Source of the DNA: Bacteroidota bacterium | GTDB taxonomy: Bacteria > Bacteroidota > Bacteroidia > SXHM01 | Length of the DNA: 42,402 nucleotides | Assembly (NCBI GenBank): GCA_947479755.1 | Contig: CANKAM010000031.1 | Coordinates: 1 to 42,402 of the forward strand | Reading direction: 5' to 3' | Shown here: positions 6,806 to 36,289 of the stretch, in pieces | How positions within the stretch are numbered: position 1 is the stretch's first letter | How the letters are laid out: each line of letters begins with the position of its first letter | Notes under the pieces: generated by a model | What the model saw: only the letters and a program-made list of their open reading frames with translations | What the model was told of the DNA's origin: nothing | Databases searched by the model: none | Position numbers and translations under genes: made by a program

Positions 6806-9800
6806 CTACCTGCCGTCTCTGATAACGTTAACTCTTCCTACAAGAGTTTTTCCTTTGAAGTCGGCATCGTCTAAATCAATTTCATAGACATACACTCCGT
6901 TAGGCACCACATCGCCAACATTGAATATAGCACCATTCCAGGGCACTGAATTATCCGTAAAATAAATTTCGTTGCCAAGGCGATTGTAAATGCGCATCAC
7001 ATAAGCATGATCCATTGTGCCGTTCATAAAAAAGGTGTCGTTCAGTCCGTCACCGTTTGGAGTAAACGCACTCGGCACCCAAAAAGCCATTACATCTTCA
7101 ACCGTTATAATATACGTTGTAGTCTCAACACAGTCACCCGAAGAAGTAACCGTTAGCGTAACAGTATAATCACCGGGCGAACCAAAATTGTGTACTGGAT
7201 TCATATCCGTACTGGTTGTTCCGTCACCAAAATCCCAGAAATAATCCACACCTCCCTGCGACTGGTTTTCAAAACGCACTTCCGAGTCATTCATATCGGG
7301 TAACTCGGGAGTAAATCCAAAACTTGCTACCGGCTGATTTACTGTAACCGTAACATCATCGCTTGCAGGAGTTGAACCACATTGATCACTTACCGTTACC
7401 GAATAGGTTGTTGTTTGCGGAGGATTAACATTTACTGTACTTCCGTTTCCTGCACCATTATCCCATGTATAACTGTAAATTCCATCACCACCTGTAGCCT
7501 GTGCATCTAAAGAAATAGGTGTGCTTGAACAAACCGTTGTATCATTTGAAGCAACCACCAATATAGGTTGTGCAAGTGTCATAACAATCTGGTTGGATGT
7601 AGCAGGATTTCCGTTGGTGCAAGGCTCGCTGGAAGTAAGTACTACAAAAACAACATCGCCTTCATTAAATGAACTGGAAGAAAAAGTTGTTCCGGTTCCT
7701 ACGTTAACTCCGTTTATCTGCCACTGATAAGCAGCTGCACTACCGCCATTAGTTCCGTTTGCAGTAAAGGTAACCGTTGCTCCTATGCAAACCGGCCCTG
7801 AAGGCGATGCAACAATGGTTACACTTGGTGTAACGTATGTATTTACATCCGCTGAAATCGGTGTTGACGCTGCTGTAGTCGGATTGGCGCAAGGCGAAGA
7901 TGAAGTAAGAGTAACCACCACCACATCACCATCATTTAATGAAGACGATGAAAAGGTAGCACCCGTTCCTGCGTTGGCTCCGTTCACGGTCCATTGATAT
8001 GTTGGATTTGCTCCCGCACTGCTGGGTGTTGCTGTAAATGTTACCTGCTCTCCGAAACAGATTGTTCCGGCAGGAACAGCAGCAACAGTAACGCTTGGAT
8101 TAATAACCTGATCAATGGCGATGGTAATTGAGTTGGATGCAGCGGTAGTTGGTGTTGCACAAACAGCATCAGAAGTCAGAATAACCGAAATCACATCGCC
8201 ATCACTGAATGAAGAAGATGTGAGTAATGCAGTGTTTCCTGAACTTACACCATTTATAAACCATTCATAAACCGGGTTGTTACCTTCATTAACAGGAGTT
8301 GGCGTAATGGTAATGCTTGTTCCTGCACACTGCGCTCCGCTTGGAAAATCTGCAATCGTAACAGAGGGAGTAACCACTTGGTCAACCGTCATCACCACCT
8401 GATTGGATGTAGCCGTTTGCGGACTTGCACACGTGCTGGCAGAAGTCATCACTACTTCAATAACATCGTTGTCGTTGAATGTTGATGATGAAAAAGTTGG
8501 ATTGGTTCCGGCATTAACTCCGTTCAGTGTCCATTGGTAGGTTGGGCCATTACCCCCTCCGCTTGTGGTTGGTGTAAACGTAACGTTGGTTCCGCTGCAA
8601 ATAATATTGGATGGTGCGGCTGCAATAGAAATAGAAGGAACTACTGTTGTGCTTACATCCATTGTAATAGCGGTTGAACCAGCTGTTGGCGGTGAAGCAC
8701 ACGTTGCATTGGAAGTCATTGTAACGGTAACAACATCGTTATCATTCAGTGTAGCAGATGTAAACGTTGCACCTGTTCCTGAATTGGTTCCGTTAACCTG
8801 CCATTGATAGGTTGGCGCTCCACCTCCGTTAGTTGGTGTTGCCGTAAATGTTACGCTGGTTCCTGTGCAGATTTGTCCTGTTGGAACTACTGCAACTGTT
8901 ACAGATGGCGTAACCGTTGGCGTAACCGACATGGTGATTGCAGCTGATGTTGCTGTGGTAGGCGAAACACAGGCTGCAGTTGAAGTCATTATAACGGTTA
9001 CGTTATCTCCGTTATTTAATGTGGTTGAAGTGAATGTTGAACCTGTTCCTGCATTAGCTCCATTTACCTGCCATTGATAAGTCGGCACACCACCATTTGT
9101 TGGAGTTGCAGTAAACGTAACACTTGCTCCTGCACAGATTGCTCCTGCAGGATTTGCTGCAATAGTAACCGTTGGAGCAACAATCGGCAACACCAACATA
9201 TTAATGTTATTTGAGTTTGCTGTGGGTGTAGAAACGCAGGTTGCATTTGAAGTCATTGTCACCGCAACAACATCTGTATTATTTAAGGAAGCAGAAGTGA
9301 ATGTTGACCCTGTTCCTGAATTAGTTCCATTCACCGTCCATTGATACGTTGGTGCATTACCTCCATTAGTAGGTGTTGCTGTAAATGTTACGCTTGTTCC
9401 GGCACATATAATCCCTGATGGATTTGCTGCAATACTTACTGCCGGAACTAAATTGGTTGTAACTACTATTGTTATTGTGTTTGAAGTTGCAGTTGGTGGC
9501 GCAGCACAGGTTGCGTTGGAAGTCATAATCACCGTTACCGCATCATTATTGTTTAATGTTGTTGAAGTAAACGTAGCGCCTGTTCCTGCATTGGTTCCGT
9601 TTACCTGCCATTGATAAGTTGGCGCACCACCTCCATTGGTAGGTGTTGCTGTAAATGTTACGCTTGTTCCTGCACAAATTGGTCCTGCAGGATTTGCTGA
9701 AATACTTACAGACGGAACAGATGCCGGCAAAATGGAAACGGTTATAGTATTGGAGGTGGCTGTTGTCGGTGAAACACAGGTTGCATTAGATGTCATTATT

Positions 9801-12436
9801 ACACGAACCACATCACCATCAGTTAAAGTATTGGTAGTAAACGTTGCACCTCCGCTTCCCGCATTCACACCATTCACCTGCCATTGATATGTTGGTGCTC
9901 CTCCTCCGTTGGTTGGTGTTGCAGTAAACGTAATACTTGTACCAGGACAAACAGGAGTGTTAGGATTTGCAGTGATAGAAACCGATGGAACTACTGGCGG
10001 ATTTACCGTAATTGTAATCGTATTGGATGTTGCTGTAGTTGGCGAAACACAGTTTGCGTTGGAAGTCATGATTACACGCACCACATCACCATTGTTTAAA
10101 CTGTTGGATGTAAAGGTTGCACCTCCACCTCCGGCATTCACACCGTTCACCTGCCATTGATAGGTTGGTGCTCCGCCTCCGTTGGTTGGTGTAGCTGTAA
10201 ATGTAACACTGGCACCTGCACAAATTGCTCCTGCCGGATTTGCTGCAATTGTTACCGAAGGAACAACCGCTGGATTTACTATCATCACAATAGCTGTTGA
10301 AGTTCCCGTAGATGGCGACACGCAGGTCGAACTGGAAGTCATAATTACGGTTACAGCGTCTCCGTTAGTTAATGTTGATGTTGTAAATGTTGCTCCGCCT
10401 GCTCCTGCATTTACACCGTTCACCTGCCATTGATAGGTTGGTGCTCCTCCTCCATTGGTTGGTGTGGCCGTAAACGTTACACTGGTGCCGGCACAAATTG
10501 CTCCCGCAGGATTTGCTGCAACTGTTACAGAAGGTGCACCTCCATTAGGAGTAACATCAATTGTTTGAACCAACGGAAAAATACAAGCACCTTGTGCATA
10601 GTTCAGCGTAATATTATAAGTACCTGCAGTATTGTAGGTAACAGAAGGGACTTTATTGTTATTTACCGTAGGTGTTGTTGAACTTGGAAACAACCAATCA
10701 TAAGCACTGGAAGGACCAGCCCCTAAGCCTGCTATCGCAACAGGTAGCCCGGCACAAACAGGATTAGGAGTAATGGTGAAACCGGGATTAACATTTTGTG
10801 TAACCGTTACTGTAGAAGAAGCAGTAGCAGTTTGACTACATGCATCGGTAATAGTTGCTGTATAAGTTGTTGTAGTTGCAGGAGTAACGGAAATTGATGT
10901 TCCTGTAGCTCCGTTGCTCCAAGCATAAGTATAAGGAGGAACCCCAAAATTTCCGCTGGCGGTTACAGTTGCGCTGTTGCCAACACAAATAGTCTGATTA
11001 CCTGTTATTGTAGGAATTTCAACAGTTTTTCCCTGAATGGTTACCGTCCACGGGCTTCCCGAAGCTATACAGAGATTATTACAAGTATTTCCTCCCGATG
11101 GATTATTCCTGTAAAAATTCATCGACAACGAAAGGTTGTAAGAAGCACATTGAGGATTGGGTATGCAAGGATCAACATCTGTAAAGATTGAAATATTGTT
11201 TCCATTGCATGCTCCGCCTGTTGGGTTGTTACAATACCAGTAAAATCCTGACTGGTCGGGACTGCGACAAGCTCCAAGCTGAAAGTCTACTGCACCCTGA
11301 TTTCTTAAACAGGCTCCTATTGCATTATAATTAAAAGTCCAAAGAACATCAGTAACTGTGCAATTTGCCGGAACCGGAACTGTAATTGGATAAGGACATC
11401 CATTTGTCCAACCTAATCCATCACCGGAGCCTGTAATCGAAGCTTGCGGAAGCGTATTGGACGCAGAAACCAACGGGTCAATTGTTACAGGGTAAACTCT
11501 GTTTTCTGCATTGAGCCAATCAACCGGAACAAAAATTGAAAACTCTTTTTCGTCAGTTAGTTGATAGCTTAGGAAGAAAGGTTCATCGGCATCAGAAGCA
11601 TCGCGCACGAAAGCTCTGCCAATAGTATAGTATTCCTGACCTTGAGTATCATAAAATGAAGCGATGCCATCATAAAGATTTTCACCCGTTTGGGTTGCAA
11701 GAGTCCAATTTACATTCAGATTACCGGCATAATCCAGTTTATCTTTTACAATCAGCGAACCGCCTGTAAAGGGAAGTCTTGCTTTTACAATAAAATTGGT
11801 TTTCACCTGTCCTTGCATAGCCTGAATGGTCATGTCAATTCCCGGCCAAACATCAAATACTTTTATACCATCGTCCCCTGATGAATAGTTGGCCCAGTTG
11901 GCATTACCAAGCGAGGTGAGGTTTCCATCCGTCTCTTTGTGTAAAAGCTCAAGACCCGTATTGAATTTAAACTCATGTCCTGGAGTTTTAATGGAGGCAA
12001 AATGATTTACAGCATCAATTTTTACCGGAAAGTGTTGGTTTTCTGCTGTAAAAATTCCGGGAGTAACACTGGTTAAACGTGCATCAAGACTTACCAGATT
12101 GCCTAAATTATCTGGAACGTGCAGCGGTCCGTACGATTTCTGAAGATAGAACGTCTGGCCGTTTGTTCCATTTTCCACAAAATAACGTTCGTCAATTTTT
12201 CTACGGTCAATCAGTTCTGTACAGTTTTCGCAAGGGGAGTTGTAAGGATTTTTAGCGTATTCCGGGTGATTGCGGTATTCAGGTGCAATCAATTTAGTGG
12301 CTTCCTCTGTAAGCCGTTGTTCAGCCTGTTTAGAGAAGGAATAGAAATCAGGCTGCTTCGCTTCCATCATGTATTGAGCGGAAGCCGAAAGCGATGTTAA
12401 GGCAAGAAGTAAAACTGAAAATAATATTCTAAACAT
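6806..12436 (-). CDS. giant Ig-repeat surface adhesin with PKD and gliding-motility C-terminal domain
   Basis: The protein has about 1,876 residues, read from the ATG at 12434-12436, whose product starts MFRILFSVLLLALTS and has a signal peptide cleaved near SASAQ. An in-frame start 33 bp upstream would place the first codons across the -7 box at 12457-12464, so it is rejected. After an N-terminal region of about 330 residues of beta-rich sequence (an uncharacterised domain also seen in other gliding-type surface proteins) come Cys-containing segments, SprB-like/Ig-like modules and then eleven tandem repeats of about 90 residues. A further Ig-like module, a PKD domain (YFWDFGDGTTS) and a type B T9SS domain (SAFTPNGDGLNDTF ... 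NRLGNEIYF) follow. Such proteins are exported by T9SS, and some are mobile gliding adhesins like SprB. The ligand is unknown. Confidence 0.9.
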   Translation of the reverse strand: MFRILFSVLLLALTSLSASAQYMMEAKQPDFYSFSKQAEQRLTEEATKLIAPEYRNHPEYAKNPYNSPCENCTELIDRRKIDERYFVENGTNGQTFYLQKSYGPLHVPDNLGNLVSLDARLTSVTPGIFTAENQHFPVKIDAVNHFASIKTPGHEFKFNTGLELLHKETDGNLTSLGNANWANYSSGDDGIKVFDVWPGIDMTIQAMQGQVKTNFIVKARLPFTGGSLIVKDKLDYAGNLNVNWTLATQTGENLYDGIASFYDTQGQEYYTIGRAFVRDASDADEPFFLSYQLTDEKEFSIFVPVDWLNAENRVYPVTIDPLVSASNTLPQASITGSGDGLGWTNGCPYPITVPVPANCTVTDVLWTFNYNAIGACLRNQGAVDFQLGACRSPDQSGFYWYCNNPTGGACNGNNISIFTDVDPCIPNPQCASYNLSLSMNFYRNNPSGGNTCNNLCIASGSPWTVTIQGKTVEIPTITGNQTICVGNSATVTASGNFGVPPYTYAWSNGATGTSISVTPATTTTYTATITDACSQTATASSTVTVTQNVNPGFTITPNPVCAGLPVAIAGLGAGPSSAYDWLFPSSTTPTVNNNKVPSVTYNTAGTYNITLNYAQGACIFPLVQTIDVTPNGGAPSVTVAANPAGAICAGTSVTFTATPTNGGGAPTYQWQVNGVNAGAGGATFTTSTLTNGDAVTVIMTSSSTCVSPSTGTSTAIVMIVNPAVVPSVTIAANPAGAICAGASVTFTATPTNGGGAPTYQWQVNGVNAGGGGATFTSNSLNNGDVVRVIMTSNANCVSPTTATSNTITITVNPPVVPSVSITANPNTPVCPGTSITFTATPTNGGGAPTYQWQVNGVNAGSGGATFTTNTLTDGDVVRVIMTSNATCVSPTTATSNTITVSILPASVPSVSISANPAGPICAGTSVTFTATPTNGGGAPTYQWQVNGTNAGTGATFTSTTLNNNDAVTVIMTSNATCAAPPTATSNTITIVVTTNLVPAVSIAANPSGIICAGTSVTFTATPTNGGNAPTYQWTVNGTNSGTGSTFTSASLNNTDVVAVTMTSNATCVSTPTANSNNINMLVLPIVAPTVTIAANPAGAICAGASVTFTATPTNGGVPTYQWQVNGANAGTGSTFTSTTLNNGDNVTVIMTSTAACVSPTTATSAAITMSVTPTVTPSVTVAVVPTGQICTGTSVTFTATPTNGGGAPTYQWQVNGTNSGTGATFTSATLNDNDVVTVTMTSNATCASPPTAGSTAITMDVSTTVVPSISIAAAPSNIICSGTNVTFTPTTSGGGNGPTYQWTLNGVNAGTNPTFSSSTFNDNDVIEVVMTSASTCASPQTATSNQVVMTVDQVVTPSVTIADFPSGAQCAGTSITITPTPVNEGNNPVYEWFINGVSSGNTALLTSSSFSDGDVISVILTSDAVCATPTTAASNSITIAIDQVINPSVTVAAVPAGTICFGEQVTFTATPSSAGANPTYQWTVNGANAGTGATFSSSSLNDGDVVVVTLTSSSPCANPTTAASTPISADVNTYVTPSVTIVASPSGPVCIGATVTFTANGTNGGSAAAYQWQINGVNVGTGTTFSSSSFNEGDVVFVVLTSSEPCTNGNPATSNQIVMTLAQPILVVASNDTTVCSSTPISLDAQATGGDGIYSYTWDNGAGNGSTVNVNPPQTTTYSVTVSDQCGSTPASDDVTVTVNQPVASFGFTPELPDMNDSEVRFENQSQGGVDYFWDFGDGTTSTDMNPVHNFGSPGDYTVTLTVTSSGDCVETTTYIITVEDVMAFWVPSAFTPNGDGLNDTFFMNGTMDHAYVMRIYNRLGNEIYFTDNSVPWNGAIFNVGDVVPNGVYVYEIDLDDADFKGKTLVGRVNVIRDGR
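7567..10541 (-). repeat. eleven tandem ~270-bp repeats coding for Ig-like units
   Basis: Eleven consecutive units of about 90 codons begin PSVTIAANP and contain a Cys near position 14 (ICAGTSVTFTATPTNGG), the YQWQVNG core, a GDxVxVxMTS strand and a second Cys (ATCVSPTTATSN). Units 1-7 (the higher coordinates) are close copies at the DNA level; units 8-11 are more diverged. The two Cys per unit could form a disulfide that staples the Ig fold. The gradient suggests expansion from the N-terminal side. Confidence 0.9.
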
Positions 12437-33679: not shown

Positions 33680-34051
33680 TTATATTTTTCTTTTTCGGAT
33701 TTCTTCTTCTATTTCTTTGAGTTTATCTAAGGGGAGGTTGCGGACGAGCTCGTTGAAGTTTACGGGTACCTGGGTTTTGATGAGGGTGGTGAGGGGGTTG
33801 TTTTTTAGTTGTTCGATGGGTTGTGTGGGTTTATAATCGAAGAGATCATTGGGGGTGCAATTGAAAATGAGACATAGTTTCTCGATGTAGGCGAGGTTGA
33901 TTTCTTTTACTTCATTATTGACGAGTTGTGTGGCGGTGTTGTGGGTGAACCCATGACTGCGCAGGAAGGTTAAGGGGCGGTCGATGTTTTTTAATGCGCA
34001 GAGATGGGCCACATTTATAAAGAGGTTGGAGGTGTAGGAACGGTTGGCCAT
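33680..34051 (-). CDS. Cro/C1-type (XRE) HTH regulator next to the 21-bp array
   Basis: The 123-residue protein has an N-terminal Cro/C1-type helix-turn-helix (about residues 8-70). It has recognition-helix-like GFTHNTATQLVNNE and the typical INLAYIEKLCLIFNCTPNDLFDY ending of this HTH family. A linker and a C-terminal charged helix (LDKLKEIEEEIRKRKI) may mediate dimerisation. No enzymatic or metabolite-binding domain is present. The ATG is at 34049-34051. The first unit of the 21-bp-period array begins 41 bp upstream, so the array covers the promoter region, and autoregulation or array binding is likely but unproven. No canonical -7 box is seen. The region appears to be an accessory island next to a transposase. 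Confidence 0.88.
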   Translation of the reverse strand: MANRSYTSNLFINVAHLCALKNIDRPLTFLRSHGFTHNTATQLVNNEVKEINLAYIEKLCLIFNCTPNDLFDYKPTQPIEQLKNNPLTTLIKTQVPVNFNELVRNLPLDKLKEIEEEIRKRKI

Positions 34052-34089
34052 TTTATTTTTGATTTAGTGAATTATTTATTTGGTGATTG

Positions 34090-34373
34090 CGTTAATTGCG
34101 ATGGTGACGGTGTTAATTGTGCAACTGATTATATTAATTGTATAGAAATTAGTGCTAATTGTATTTTTTTATTTATTAATTGTTATTTTGTTGCTATTAA
34201 TTGTGGCAAATTTAGTATTAATTTTATAAACTATACTGTTAATTGTAATATTATCAGTGTTAATTATATTAATTACGTTGTTAACTGATAGTATATACAT
34301 ATTAATTGTGTTAGTTACTGTGTTAATTGTATGGATGGTGGTATTAATTGTTTAGGCGCAAGCGTTAATTGCG
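34090..34373. repeat. fourteen-unit array of TTAATTG cores with exact 21-bp period
   Basis: Cores start at 34092, 34113, 34134, 34155, 34176, 34197, 34218, 34239, 34260, 34281, 34302, 34323, 34344 and 34365. Ten are exactly TTAATTG; the other four have one substitution each (CTAATTG at 34155, TTAATTT at 34218, TTAATTA at 34260, TTAACTG at 34281). The base before the core is a purine in all 14 units, the one before that is T in 12, and the base after is T in 11. This gives a wider consensus TRTTAATTGT. The thirteen 14-bp spacers are all different. The first and last units have C instead of T on both sides and share GCGTTAATTGCGA. The period is two helical turns. Confidence 0.95.
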
Positions 34374-34732
34374 AGGGGTGAATTTGGGTGTTTTATGCGG
34401 GGAGAGGAAGATTTGAAGGTGGGTGAGGTGAGTTTTAAATACAAAGGCTGCAAAGAGGGAGGGCAAACGACAGGAAGGATGGTAGGGACTTGAAAAGATT
34501 GTTGGGAATTATTTGGTGTTGGGATGTAATGGTAAAAAACGGATTGAAAATCCTAAAACTCAGCGGTCGGGATTGCAAATCCTGACCAACGCAAACGAAC
34601 ATCCTCACTAACGGGACCAGCATCAACGCATATCCTTACCAACTGAGAAATAATAGGCGACACGAGGCAAAAAGATCCTCGCGTCTGCGGGGAGTTACAC
34701 AGTGATTGTTTAAACCAATTTATTTTATTCAA
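34374..34732. other. non-coding stretch between array and transposase with three hairpins
   Basis: I see no credible gene here. The left part (34374-34500) is G/A-rich with no motif. Hairpins lie at 34541-34553 (GGATT-GAA-AATCC), 34566-34586 (GTCGGGATT-GCA-AATCCTGAC, one G-T pair) and 34659-34685 (GACACGAGG / CCTCGCGTC, one mismatch). The last stands 48 bp before the transposase ATG. They may be transposon-end remnants, terminators or a structured RNA. I could not find terminal inverted repeats or a tRNA. Confidence 0.6.
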
Positions 34733-36289
34733 ATGGCAAATAATATTAGTATCCAAAAAATTAAAACCATCATAGCATATCAAAAATATGAAGCTAATGG
34801 CAGCAAAAGACAACTTGCCAAGACGCTCAGGATTTCAAGAACCACGCTTAAGAGATATATCGAAAAAATTAAAAAACTAGAAATATTACCACAAAGAATA
34901 GAGAGTGGACCAAAAGAAATTTTGCAGATGCTACAATGGCAGAAGAACAAAAGCTTCAAGCAGAAAGATTTGGAAAAAAAGCTACCTAAGATACACGAAC
35001 GAATAGGAAGCGGGGATTCAAATTTGAAATCGGAATGGATTGATTATTTGAAGAAGTACCAAGAAGGGTATAAGTTATCTAATTTTACTCAACTATATGG
35101 CATTTGGTGTAAAGGATTAGGAATAAATAAAAGTAAAACTGGAAAATGGAGAGTTAAAATCATTTCCATTTATGACCTAAAAATTCTTGACAAGTGGCGT
35201 AAATCTTCTGACCGAAGGGAATGGGAAAAGGCCGCTATTCTATTTGGATCCCAGAAGGGATTATCTATAGGAGAAATTGCAAATAAAATTGATCGATCTA
35301 TTGATACGGTAAAGGAATGTATTGAAATTTATAACAGAACAGGATTAGATGAATTATTAAGAAAGAATAGAAAAGTTAACGAGGGGATAAAAGAAAATGT
35401 AAAAAGAAAAAAAAGTAATTTAATTAAACTTATACACGAAACCCCAAGCCTTCATAATATAAACAGAGCCTCTTGGGATTTAAAAAGTCTTGTTAAAGCC
35501 TATAAGAAATTATATAATGAAACAATATCCAAGACAACAATTTCTGCTTATATAAAGGCTGAAGGTTTTACATTCAGGAAGGCGAAAGAAACGTTAACCA
35601 GCCCCGATCCTGATTTCCGCGCAAAATTGGATAAGATTAAAATAATATTGTCGAATTTAAAAGAAGATGAAAAATTCTTTTCTGTTGACGAATACGGACC
35701 ATTCTCTGTAAAAATAAAAGGAGGAAGGTCAATCGTAAAAAAAGGAGAAAGAAAGACGTATCCTCAAAGACAGAAAAGCAAAGGATTTTTAATTTGCACA
35801 GCAGCTTTGGAATTATCTAAAAATCAAATTTCCCATTTTTACTCTCTTAAAAAAAACACAGAGGAAATGATTAAGTTATTAGAATTGCTTCTAAAAGAAT
35901 ACCCAAACGAAAGACGCATTTTCTTTTCTTGGGATGCGGCATCATGGCACGCTTCAAAGGAACTATATGCAAAAATAGAAGAAATAAATAGCGAAGAATA
36001 CAGGAAGATACACAATAATCCTATTGTTGAACTTGCACCATTACCCGCATCTGCTCAATTCCTTAATGTAATTGAATCTGTATTTAGTGGAATGGCTAAA
36101 GGAATTATTCATAACAGTAATTACCAATCAGTTCAGGAATGTAAGCAGGCTATTGATTTATATTTTACTGAGAGGAATGATTATTTTAAGGAAAATCCTA
36201 AAAAGGCTGGGAATAAAATTTGGGGTAAAGAATTAGTAAAGCCCATATTTAGTGATAATCATAACTGTAAAGATCCTAAATGGAGGTAA
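34733..36289 (+). CDS. chimeric transposase: IS21-like N-terminus, IS630-like DDE C-terminus
   Basis: The 518-residue protein has an IstA-like HTH (SKRQLAKTLRISRTTLKRYI, 24-43) followed by a segment like the IS21 W...IHEEL...YxxW region (PKIHERIG ... WIDYLKKYQEGYKLSNFTQLYGIW). A second HTH of IS630 type (LSIGEIANKIDRSIDTVKE) comes next, then a DDE core with Asp319 (FSVDEYGPF), Asp401 (FSWDAASWHASKE) and Glu448 (LNVIESVFSGM). The ATG at 34733 starts MANNISIQK as in IstA. An alternative TTG at 34706 adds nine residues. Codon use is strongly A-rich (AAA, AAT, ATA), unlike the neighbours, so it was probably acquired. No terminal repeats were found, and the ORF appears intact. Confidence 0.82.
   Translation: MANNISIQKIKTIIAYQKYEANGSKRQLAKTLRISRTTLKRYIEKIKKLEILPQRIESGPKEILQMLQWQKNKSFKQKDLEKKLPKIHERIGSGDSNLKSEWIDYLKKYQEGYKLSNFTQLYGIWCKGLGINKSKTGKWRVKIISIYDLKILDKWRKSSDRREWEKAAILFGSQKGLSIGEIANKIDRSIDTVKECIEIYNRTGLDELLRKNRKVNEGIKENVKRKKSNLIKLIHETPSLHNINRASWDLKSLVKAYKKLYNETISKTTISAYIKAEGFTFRKAKETLTSPDPDFRAKLDKIKIILSNLKEDEKFFSVDEYGPFSVKIKGGRSIVKKGERKTYPQRQKSKGFLICTAALELSKNQISHFYSLKKNTEEMIKLLELLLKEYPNERRIFFSWDAASWHASKELYAKIEEINSEEYRKIHNNPIVELAPLPASAQFLNVIESVFSGMAKGIIHNSNYQSVQECKQAIDLYFTERNDYFKENPKKAGNKIWGKELVKPIFSDNHNCKDPKWR

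Follow-up and report, generated by a model that had tools for sequence, protein, structure and literature searches.

A phase-locked 21-bp array of short cores upstream of a small XRE-type regulator gene: a candidate multi-site operator in Bacteroidota

The window, a stretch of 42,402 nucleotides from a Bacteroidota bacterium, contains an array of 14 units with an exact 21-bp period (positions 34090 to 34372, no strand assigned). The array sits directly upstream of the minus-strand start codon of a small XRE-type regulator gene, 41 bp away, as the earlier note had placed it. It is probably a helically phased multi-site operator, which the adjacent XRE protein would bind cooperatively to control its own gene. 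We regard the locus as a variant of the multi-operator XRE autoregulator, accompanied by a wider and unexplained set of 21-bp arrays, a view that the data support in part. No description of 21-bp arrays upstream of Bacteroidetes XRE genes was found in an open-access literature library.

The array is highly regular. Its cores start at 34092 + 21n (n = 0-13), and the last one ends at 34371. A recount gave the same picture as the earlier note, with TTAATTG exact in ten of the 14 cores and a single change in the other four (CTAATTG at 34155, TTAATTT at 34218, TTAATTA at 34260 and TTAACTG at 34281). Column counts also returned the conserved part proposed there, approximately TRTTAATTGT; the remaining columns are near random and carry little information, so that spacers of ~11-14 bp drift between fixed cores. 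Autocorrelation for a 21-bp period, which had been suggested as a check, gave at lag 21 of the array the highest self-identity in the window (0.56, over lags 5-79 and all 273-bp stretches), followed by lags 42 and 63 of the same array; the window otherwise reaches 0.44 at most. The column-likelihood score is 81 for period 21 and 5-23 for the other periods from 14 to 33. In 100 dinucleotide-preserving shuffles of the array the period-21 score never exceeded 15.6, which bears out the earlier judgement that the pattern is too regular for chance.

The array is non-coding, since stops occur in all six frames (2, 3, 22, 2, 6 and 23). A coding repeat of seven codons was considered and ruled out by the presence of at least two stops per frame. 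A search of the window for known RNA families returned a tRNA only. Sites of XRE dimers are usually inverted repeats; the core of this array has no clear inverted repeat. Another tandem repeat of the window, with a 273-bp unit in 6.8 copies (8682-10521), probably corresponds to domains that recur within a large surface protein.

The adjacent gene (33680 to 34051, minus strand) encodes a protein of 123 aa, consisting of an HTH_26 domain (Pfam PF13443, matched at 1.5e-10) and a helical C-terminal tail of ~45 aa. A single-sequence AlphaFold2 model was poor, and the model built with 34 aligned homologues was usable (pLDDT 83): it has a Cro/CI-like fold in which the HTH core is confident and the tail less certain. 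The nearest solved folds are the HTH domains of the Cro/CI-type regulators SaPI2 Stl, VanUg, CylR2 and SinR; none matches at E < 0.001 over the whole chain. Searches of NCBIfam and PADLOC gave no match to the family of this gene, and its matches in PHROGs are generic or of unknown function only.

Between array and start codon lies a leader (34052 to 34089, minus strand), the length of which varies in homologues by whole units. From the nearest core to the ATG there are 40, 61, 61 and 40 bp in four homologues; two further ones have 102 and 123 bp, and in all six the distance modulo 21 is 19 or 18; in a seventh, more diverged homologue it falls off these 21-bp steps. Either a phase requirement or the decay of units on the promoter side would explain the steps. 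The distal end of the array is followed by a conserved flank of 27 bp (34379 to 34405, no strand; TGAATTTGGGTGTTTTATGCGGGGAGA, read on the gene strand as ..CACACAAAACACCCAATTTCA..), which is common to six homologous loci, mostly at different genome sites (alignments A2 and A3). Just beyond the array, at 34706-36289, is an insertion-sequence transposase of the DDE_3 type. A possible Bacteroidota -7 promoter element, TAAATTTG, is located mid-array (34207 to 34214, minus strand); its retention in three homologues tentatively suggests such a role. Within 400 bp upstream of 40 family members, TANNTTTG was seen 21 times against 9.1 expected, at no fixed position, an approximately twofold enrichment relative to a simple mononucleotide shuffle.

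Homologues of the XRE gene are present in five genomes of the same genus. The genome of the window itself has a second copy on another contig, 90% identical and also preceded by 14 units. The array of the window (contig C31), the one on C2 and the one at G004:C115 can be aligned free of gaps over 294 bp. Identity in these comparisons is 91-95% for the TTAATTG columns and 48-58% for the spacers, from which it follows that the cores and their spacing are under selection and that the spacers drift. This difference also bears on the idea of a neutral minisatellite, in which slippage would have amplified a 21-bp unit that later decayed. Amplification does occur, as some arrays elsewhere have near-identical units (e.g., L282 and L280). 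Decay, however, would be even along the unit, whereas this array has 7-10 conserved columns among others that are near random. A minisatellite would also leave unexplained the location upstream of the same gene families and the exclusive 21-bp period. We therefore disfavour this explanation and consider it highly improbable.

The survey was extended by running a profile of the XRE family on two samples of 395 genomes each, one at the level of the class and one of the phylum. Full-length members (E < 1e-14) are clearly apart from generic HTH_26 genes, and control upstream regions comprised the 600 bp before each match. The family is sparse in Bacteroidota, with 41 member loci in 12 families and as many as four or five chromosomal copies in one genome. 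An absence of arrays beside XRE homologues, which would have spoken against the earlier note, was looked for: in 40 of the 41 loci the gene is preceded by an array with a 21-bp period, made up of 7-18 units and with its best lag at 21, 42 or 63, compared with 0 of 27 generic HTH_26 control genes. The one member that has no array is a 68-aa fragment, so all 40 full-length members have one. Array scores are 24-246 for members (the weakest is L267) and 8-15 for generic HTH_26 genes. Some members (L244, L247, L260 and L261; ~220-235 aa) consist of two HTH_26 units fused in tandem, and they too are preceded by one 21-bp array only. Viral contigs yielded no member of the family, and the plasmid and phage sets gave nothing beyond partial generic HTH matches; among 72,556 plasmids, no relative covered 80% of the XRE protein.

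The cores themselves are family-specific. The earlier note had proposed to look for TTAATTG at 21-bp steps beside homologues; the 21-bp architecture proved general, whereas TTAATTG is restricted to close relatives of the window and other cores are found elsewhere. A global scan for three TTAATTG cores at 21-bp spacing yielded mostly other repeats, either ordinary tandem repeats with a 7-bp unit or coding repeats in an open frame, in which the spacers are nearly identical. The general feature is thus the period and the position, not the core sequence. Paralogues that are more than 70% identical have cores in common, with a mean similarity of 0.75; the cores of distant ones are unlike each other (0.31-0.33). 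Beyond relatedness, no correlation was detected between recognition-helix identity and core similarity among 29 non-redundant members (partial r 0.03, p 0.27), and because of this negative result the case for recognition of the core by the protein is one of association.

A second small XRE family provides the strongest argument that the array and the HTH protein belong together. This family, found via the loci of a neighbouring gene family, carries a coiled-coil tail (A6), and a 21-bp array is located before the gene in all 13 of its strong members (E < 1e-17; 295 genomes); two weaker matches have no convincing 21-bp array. The same array architecture is thus common to two XRE families that differ in their tails, each with the sites before its own gene.

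Arrays of this kind are nevertheless not confined to HTH genes. In 842 kb (22%) of the genome of the window, 21 arrays of period 21 or 42 were counted and a further three of period 41, 24 in all, compared with seven arrays for all other periods from 15 to 45. The 21-bp arrays, each with a private core, are the dominant tandem repeat of this genome at about one per 40 kb, and extrapolation gives ~100 in the whole genome. Examples among loci L319-L358 are L332:10661-10975, L339:17515-17808, L347:11522-11815 and L349:8231-8545. Many of them lack an HTH neighbour, so an array can exist without an adjacent HTH gene. Many adjoin unannotated helical proteins whose tails are of the Ig, CarboxypepD_reg or Fn3 type: in the A5/SNYHD group, six of eight sampled members have an array within 350 bp and a seventh has one at 378 bp, and in a small Fn3-type group all three members are beside one. 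The A5 family is found next to arrays in other genera too.

Several observations describe these neighbours. A5 ('MTDxQSN') is an unannotated multi-copy family of ~310 aa with a helical N-terminal part and a variable Ig/CarboxypepD_reg tail. It lies beside 21-bp arrays at L237, L330, L302-L305, L314, L306, L316 and other loci, where the array is often between the A5 gene and a small HTH gene. The SNYHD group was seen at L326, L327, L334 and L341, the Fn3-tailed group ('ILAGF-Fn3') at L335, L345 and L355, and further small unannotated helical proteins at L350:14289 and L353:625. In one orphan array (L010:4430-4815, on G000:C51), cores of the GTTGCTGCCTCTTGCAGCG type change to TTAATTG within the same 21-bp register; an orphan array on contig C79 also contains TTAATTG units.

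This wider set suggests another explanation, in which the arrays would be cis elements of general use, recognised by a different, shared machinery or by other proteins. Small HTH genes would then be just one of several gene types under such arrays, and the array before an HTH gene would not be bound by the product of that gene. It is favoured by the density of arrays, many of them beside the Ig/Fn3-tailed families or ordinary genes, and by the lack of covariation between recognition helix and core. However, cores vary between arrays, which speaks against a single sequence-specific reader for all of them, and the link to the HTH gene is near-complete for two families. In the complete genome G674, which has a single HTH member, no array was seen in the 400 kb sampled except the one at the HTH gene. 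Two genomes that lack the XRE family showed no arrays in 200 kb sampled from each, and 435 kb around HTH loci contained only three other arrays, all in one locus. We consider this explanation rather unlikely.

The locus is also subject to turnover. In two genomes of the genus, accC and rluB are separated by 80 bp and 55 bp; in G000 and G001, the gap contains the HTH gene, the array and an insertion sequence. In G006 (C36, locus L401), this site, where the window has the HTH gene and the TTAATTG array, is occupied by another 21-bp array, the core of which is CCTATTGCTTCT and which lacks an HTH gene, even though the flanking genes are 99% identical. These differences between same-genus genomes indicate that gene and array are gained or lost as units. 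It could be argued from the empty, occupied or otherwise filled gap, and from the paralogues of the XRE gene and its array at unrelated sites, that gene and array form a self-propagating or laterally moving cassette, inserted together between genes, with the array serving its spread. Yet no recombinase recurs beside the loci, and a gene related to the DDE_3 transposase of the window is found at only one other HTH locus, G004:C115. Close relatives are missing from the phage, plasmid and viral sets, and gain by recombination or loss by deletion would produce the same pattern. A mobile cassette is therefore very unlikely.

The preferred explanation remains the phased operator, and its mechanism can be outlined as follows. 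Protein units would bind the cores, one per 21 bp. As 21 bp corresponds to two helical turns of DNA, the cores lie on one face, where contact between neighbours is possible and binding could be cooperative. The proximal end of the array is a median of 58 bp (5-235) from the start codon, so the promoter must usually overlap or abut it; the bound protein would then cover ~300 bp before the gene, including the promoter or adjoining it. For this reason, autorepression is favoured: the outcome would be a steep autoregulation, most likely negative. At some loci, the array may control a divergent neighbour as well. With a private core for each family member, gene and array would travel as a matched pair.

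A broader and more tentative proposal is that phase-locked 21-bp arrays constitute an undescribed class of chromosomal element in Bacteroidota, with private cores matched both to private small HTH proteins and to the helical Ig/Fn3-tailed families. They might be assembly platforms for oligomers that silence genes, fold DNA or switch genes, numbering ~100 per genome in some lineages and turning over between close strains. We consider this possible and less likely than the operator. If the operator reading is right, a very small protein matched to a long phase-locked array of a private motif is a widespread architecture. It would offer dozens of distinct natural protein-array pairs in which to follow the co-evolution of specificity and cooperativity, and ready-made steep switches for Bacteroidota genetics. 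The arrays would also offer a starting point for work on several unannotated protein families repeatedly seen next to them.

The array resembles several known systems. Its repeat-spacer appearance recalls a CRISPR array, which has repeats of ~21-50 bp, acquired spacers and cas genes. CRISPR was rejected: the core of 7-10 bp is too short, as the earlier note had argued, and the spacers of 11-14 bp are inherited, being alignable by substitution between paralogous arrays, in a fixed 21-bp phase. Plasmid iterons are direct repeats spaced near two helical turns. Here the spacers are divergent, the adjacent genes encode no Rep initiator domain, and copies are several and chromosomal, with no plasmid relative that covers 80% of the protein, so that an iteron origin was also dismissed. 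The earlier note had offered an operator, an iteron or a partition-like site bound by the XRE protein; the data support the phased array tied to the XRE gene and lend no support to the iteron or the partition site.

A centromere-like or nucleoid-organising site, with the array mainly as an assembly platform, would resemble ParR/parC, in which a direct-repeat array with family-specific repeats lies beside the gene of its binding protein (PMC9426499). The length and repetition of the array are similar to those of parC, and paralogues with different cores recall the orthogonal ParR/parC families (PMC9426499). That system, however, uses a ribbon-helix-helix protein, the ParM NTPase and repeats of 8-20 bp on plasmids, none of which is present here. 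The protein is of the HTH_26 type with a Cro/CI fold, no NTPase neighbour recurs in the 41 loci, genomes hold up to four or five chromosomal copies, and the locus is absent from relatives and was not seen on plasmids. A partition system was thus rejected, and a centromere-like or nucleoid-organising role is very unlikely.

Closer parallels come from regulators. In the Bordetella virulence promoters, up to six BvgA dimers bind every 22 bp on one helix face beside the core promoter (PMC7250471). The two-turn spacing and the sites on one face of the DNA are shared; BvgA differs in being a response regulator at target promoters, with fewer and weakly similar sites and no private array per paralogue. 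The XRE autoregulator HipB acts at four cooperative operators in hipBA, an operator being 21 bp (PMC3376134). Like HipB, the protein described here is a small XRE HTH protein with sites before its own gene. It differs from HipB in having 7-18 evenly phased sites, a short non-palindromic core that changes with each paralogue, and no toxin partner.
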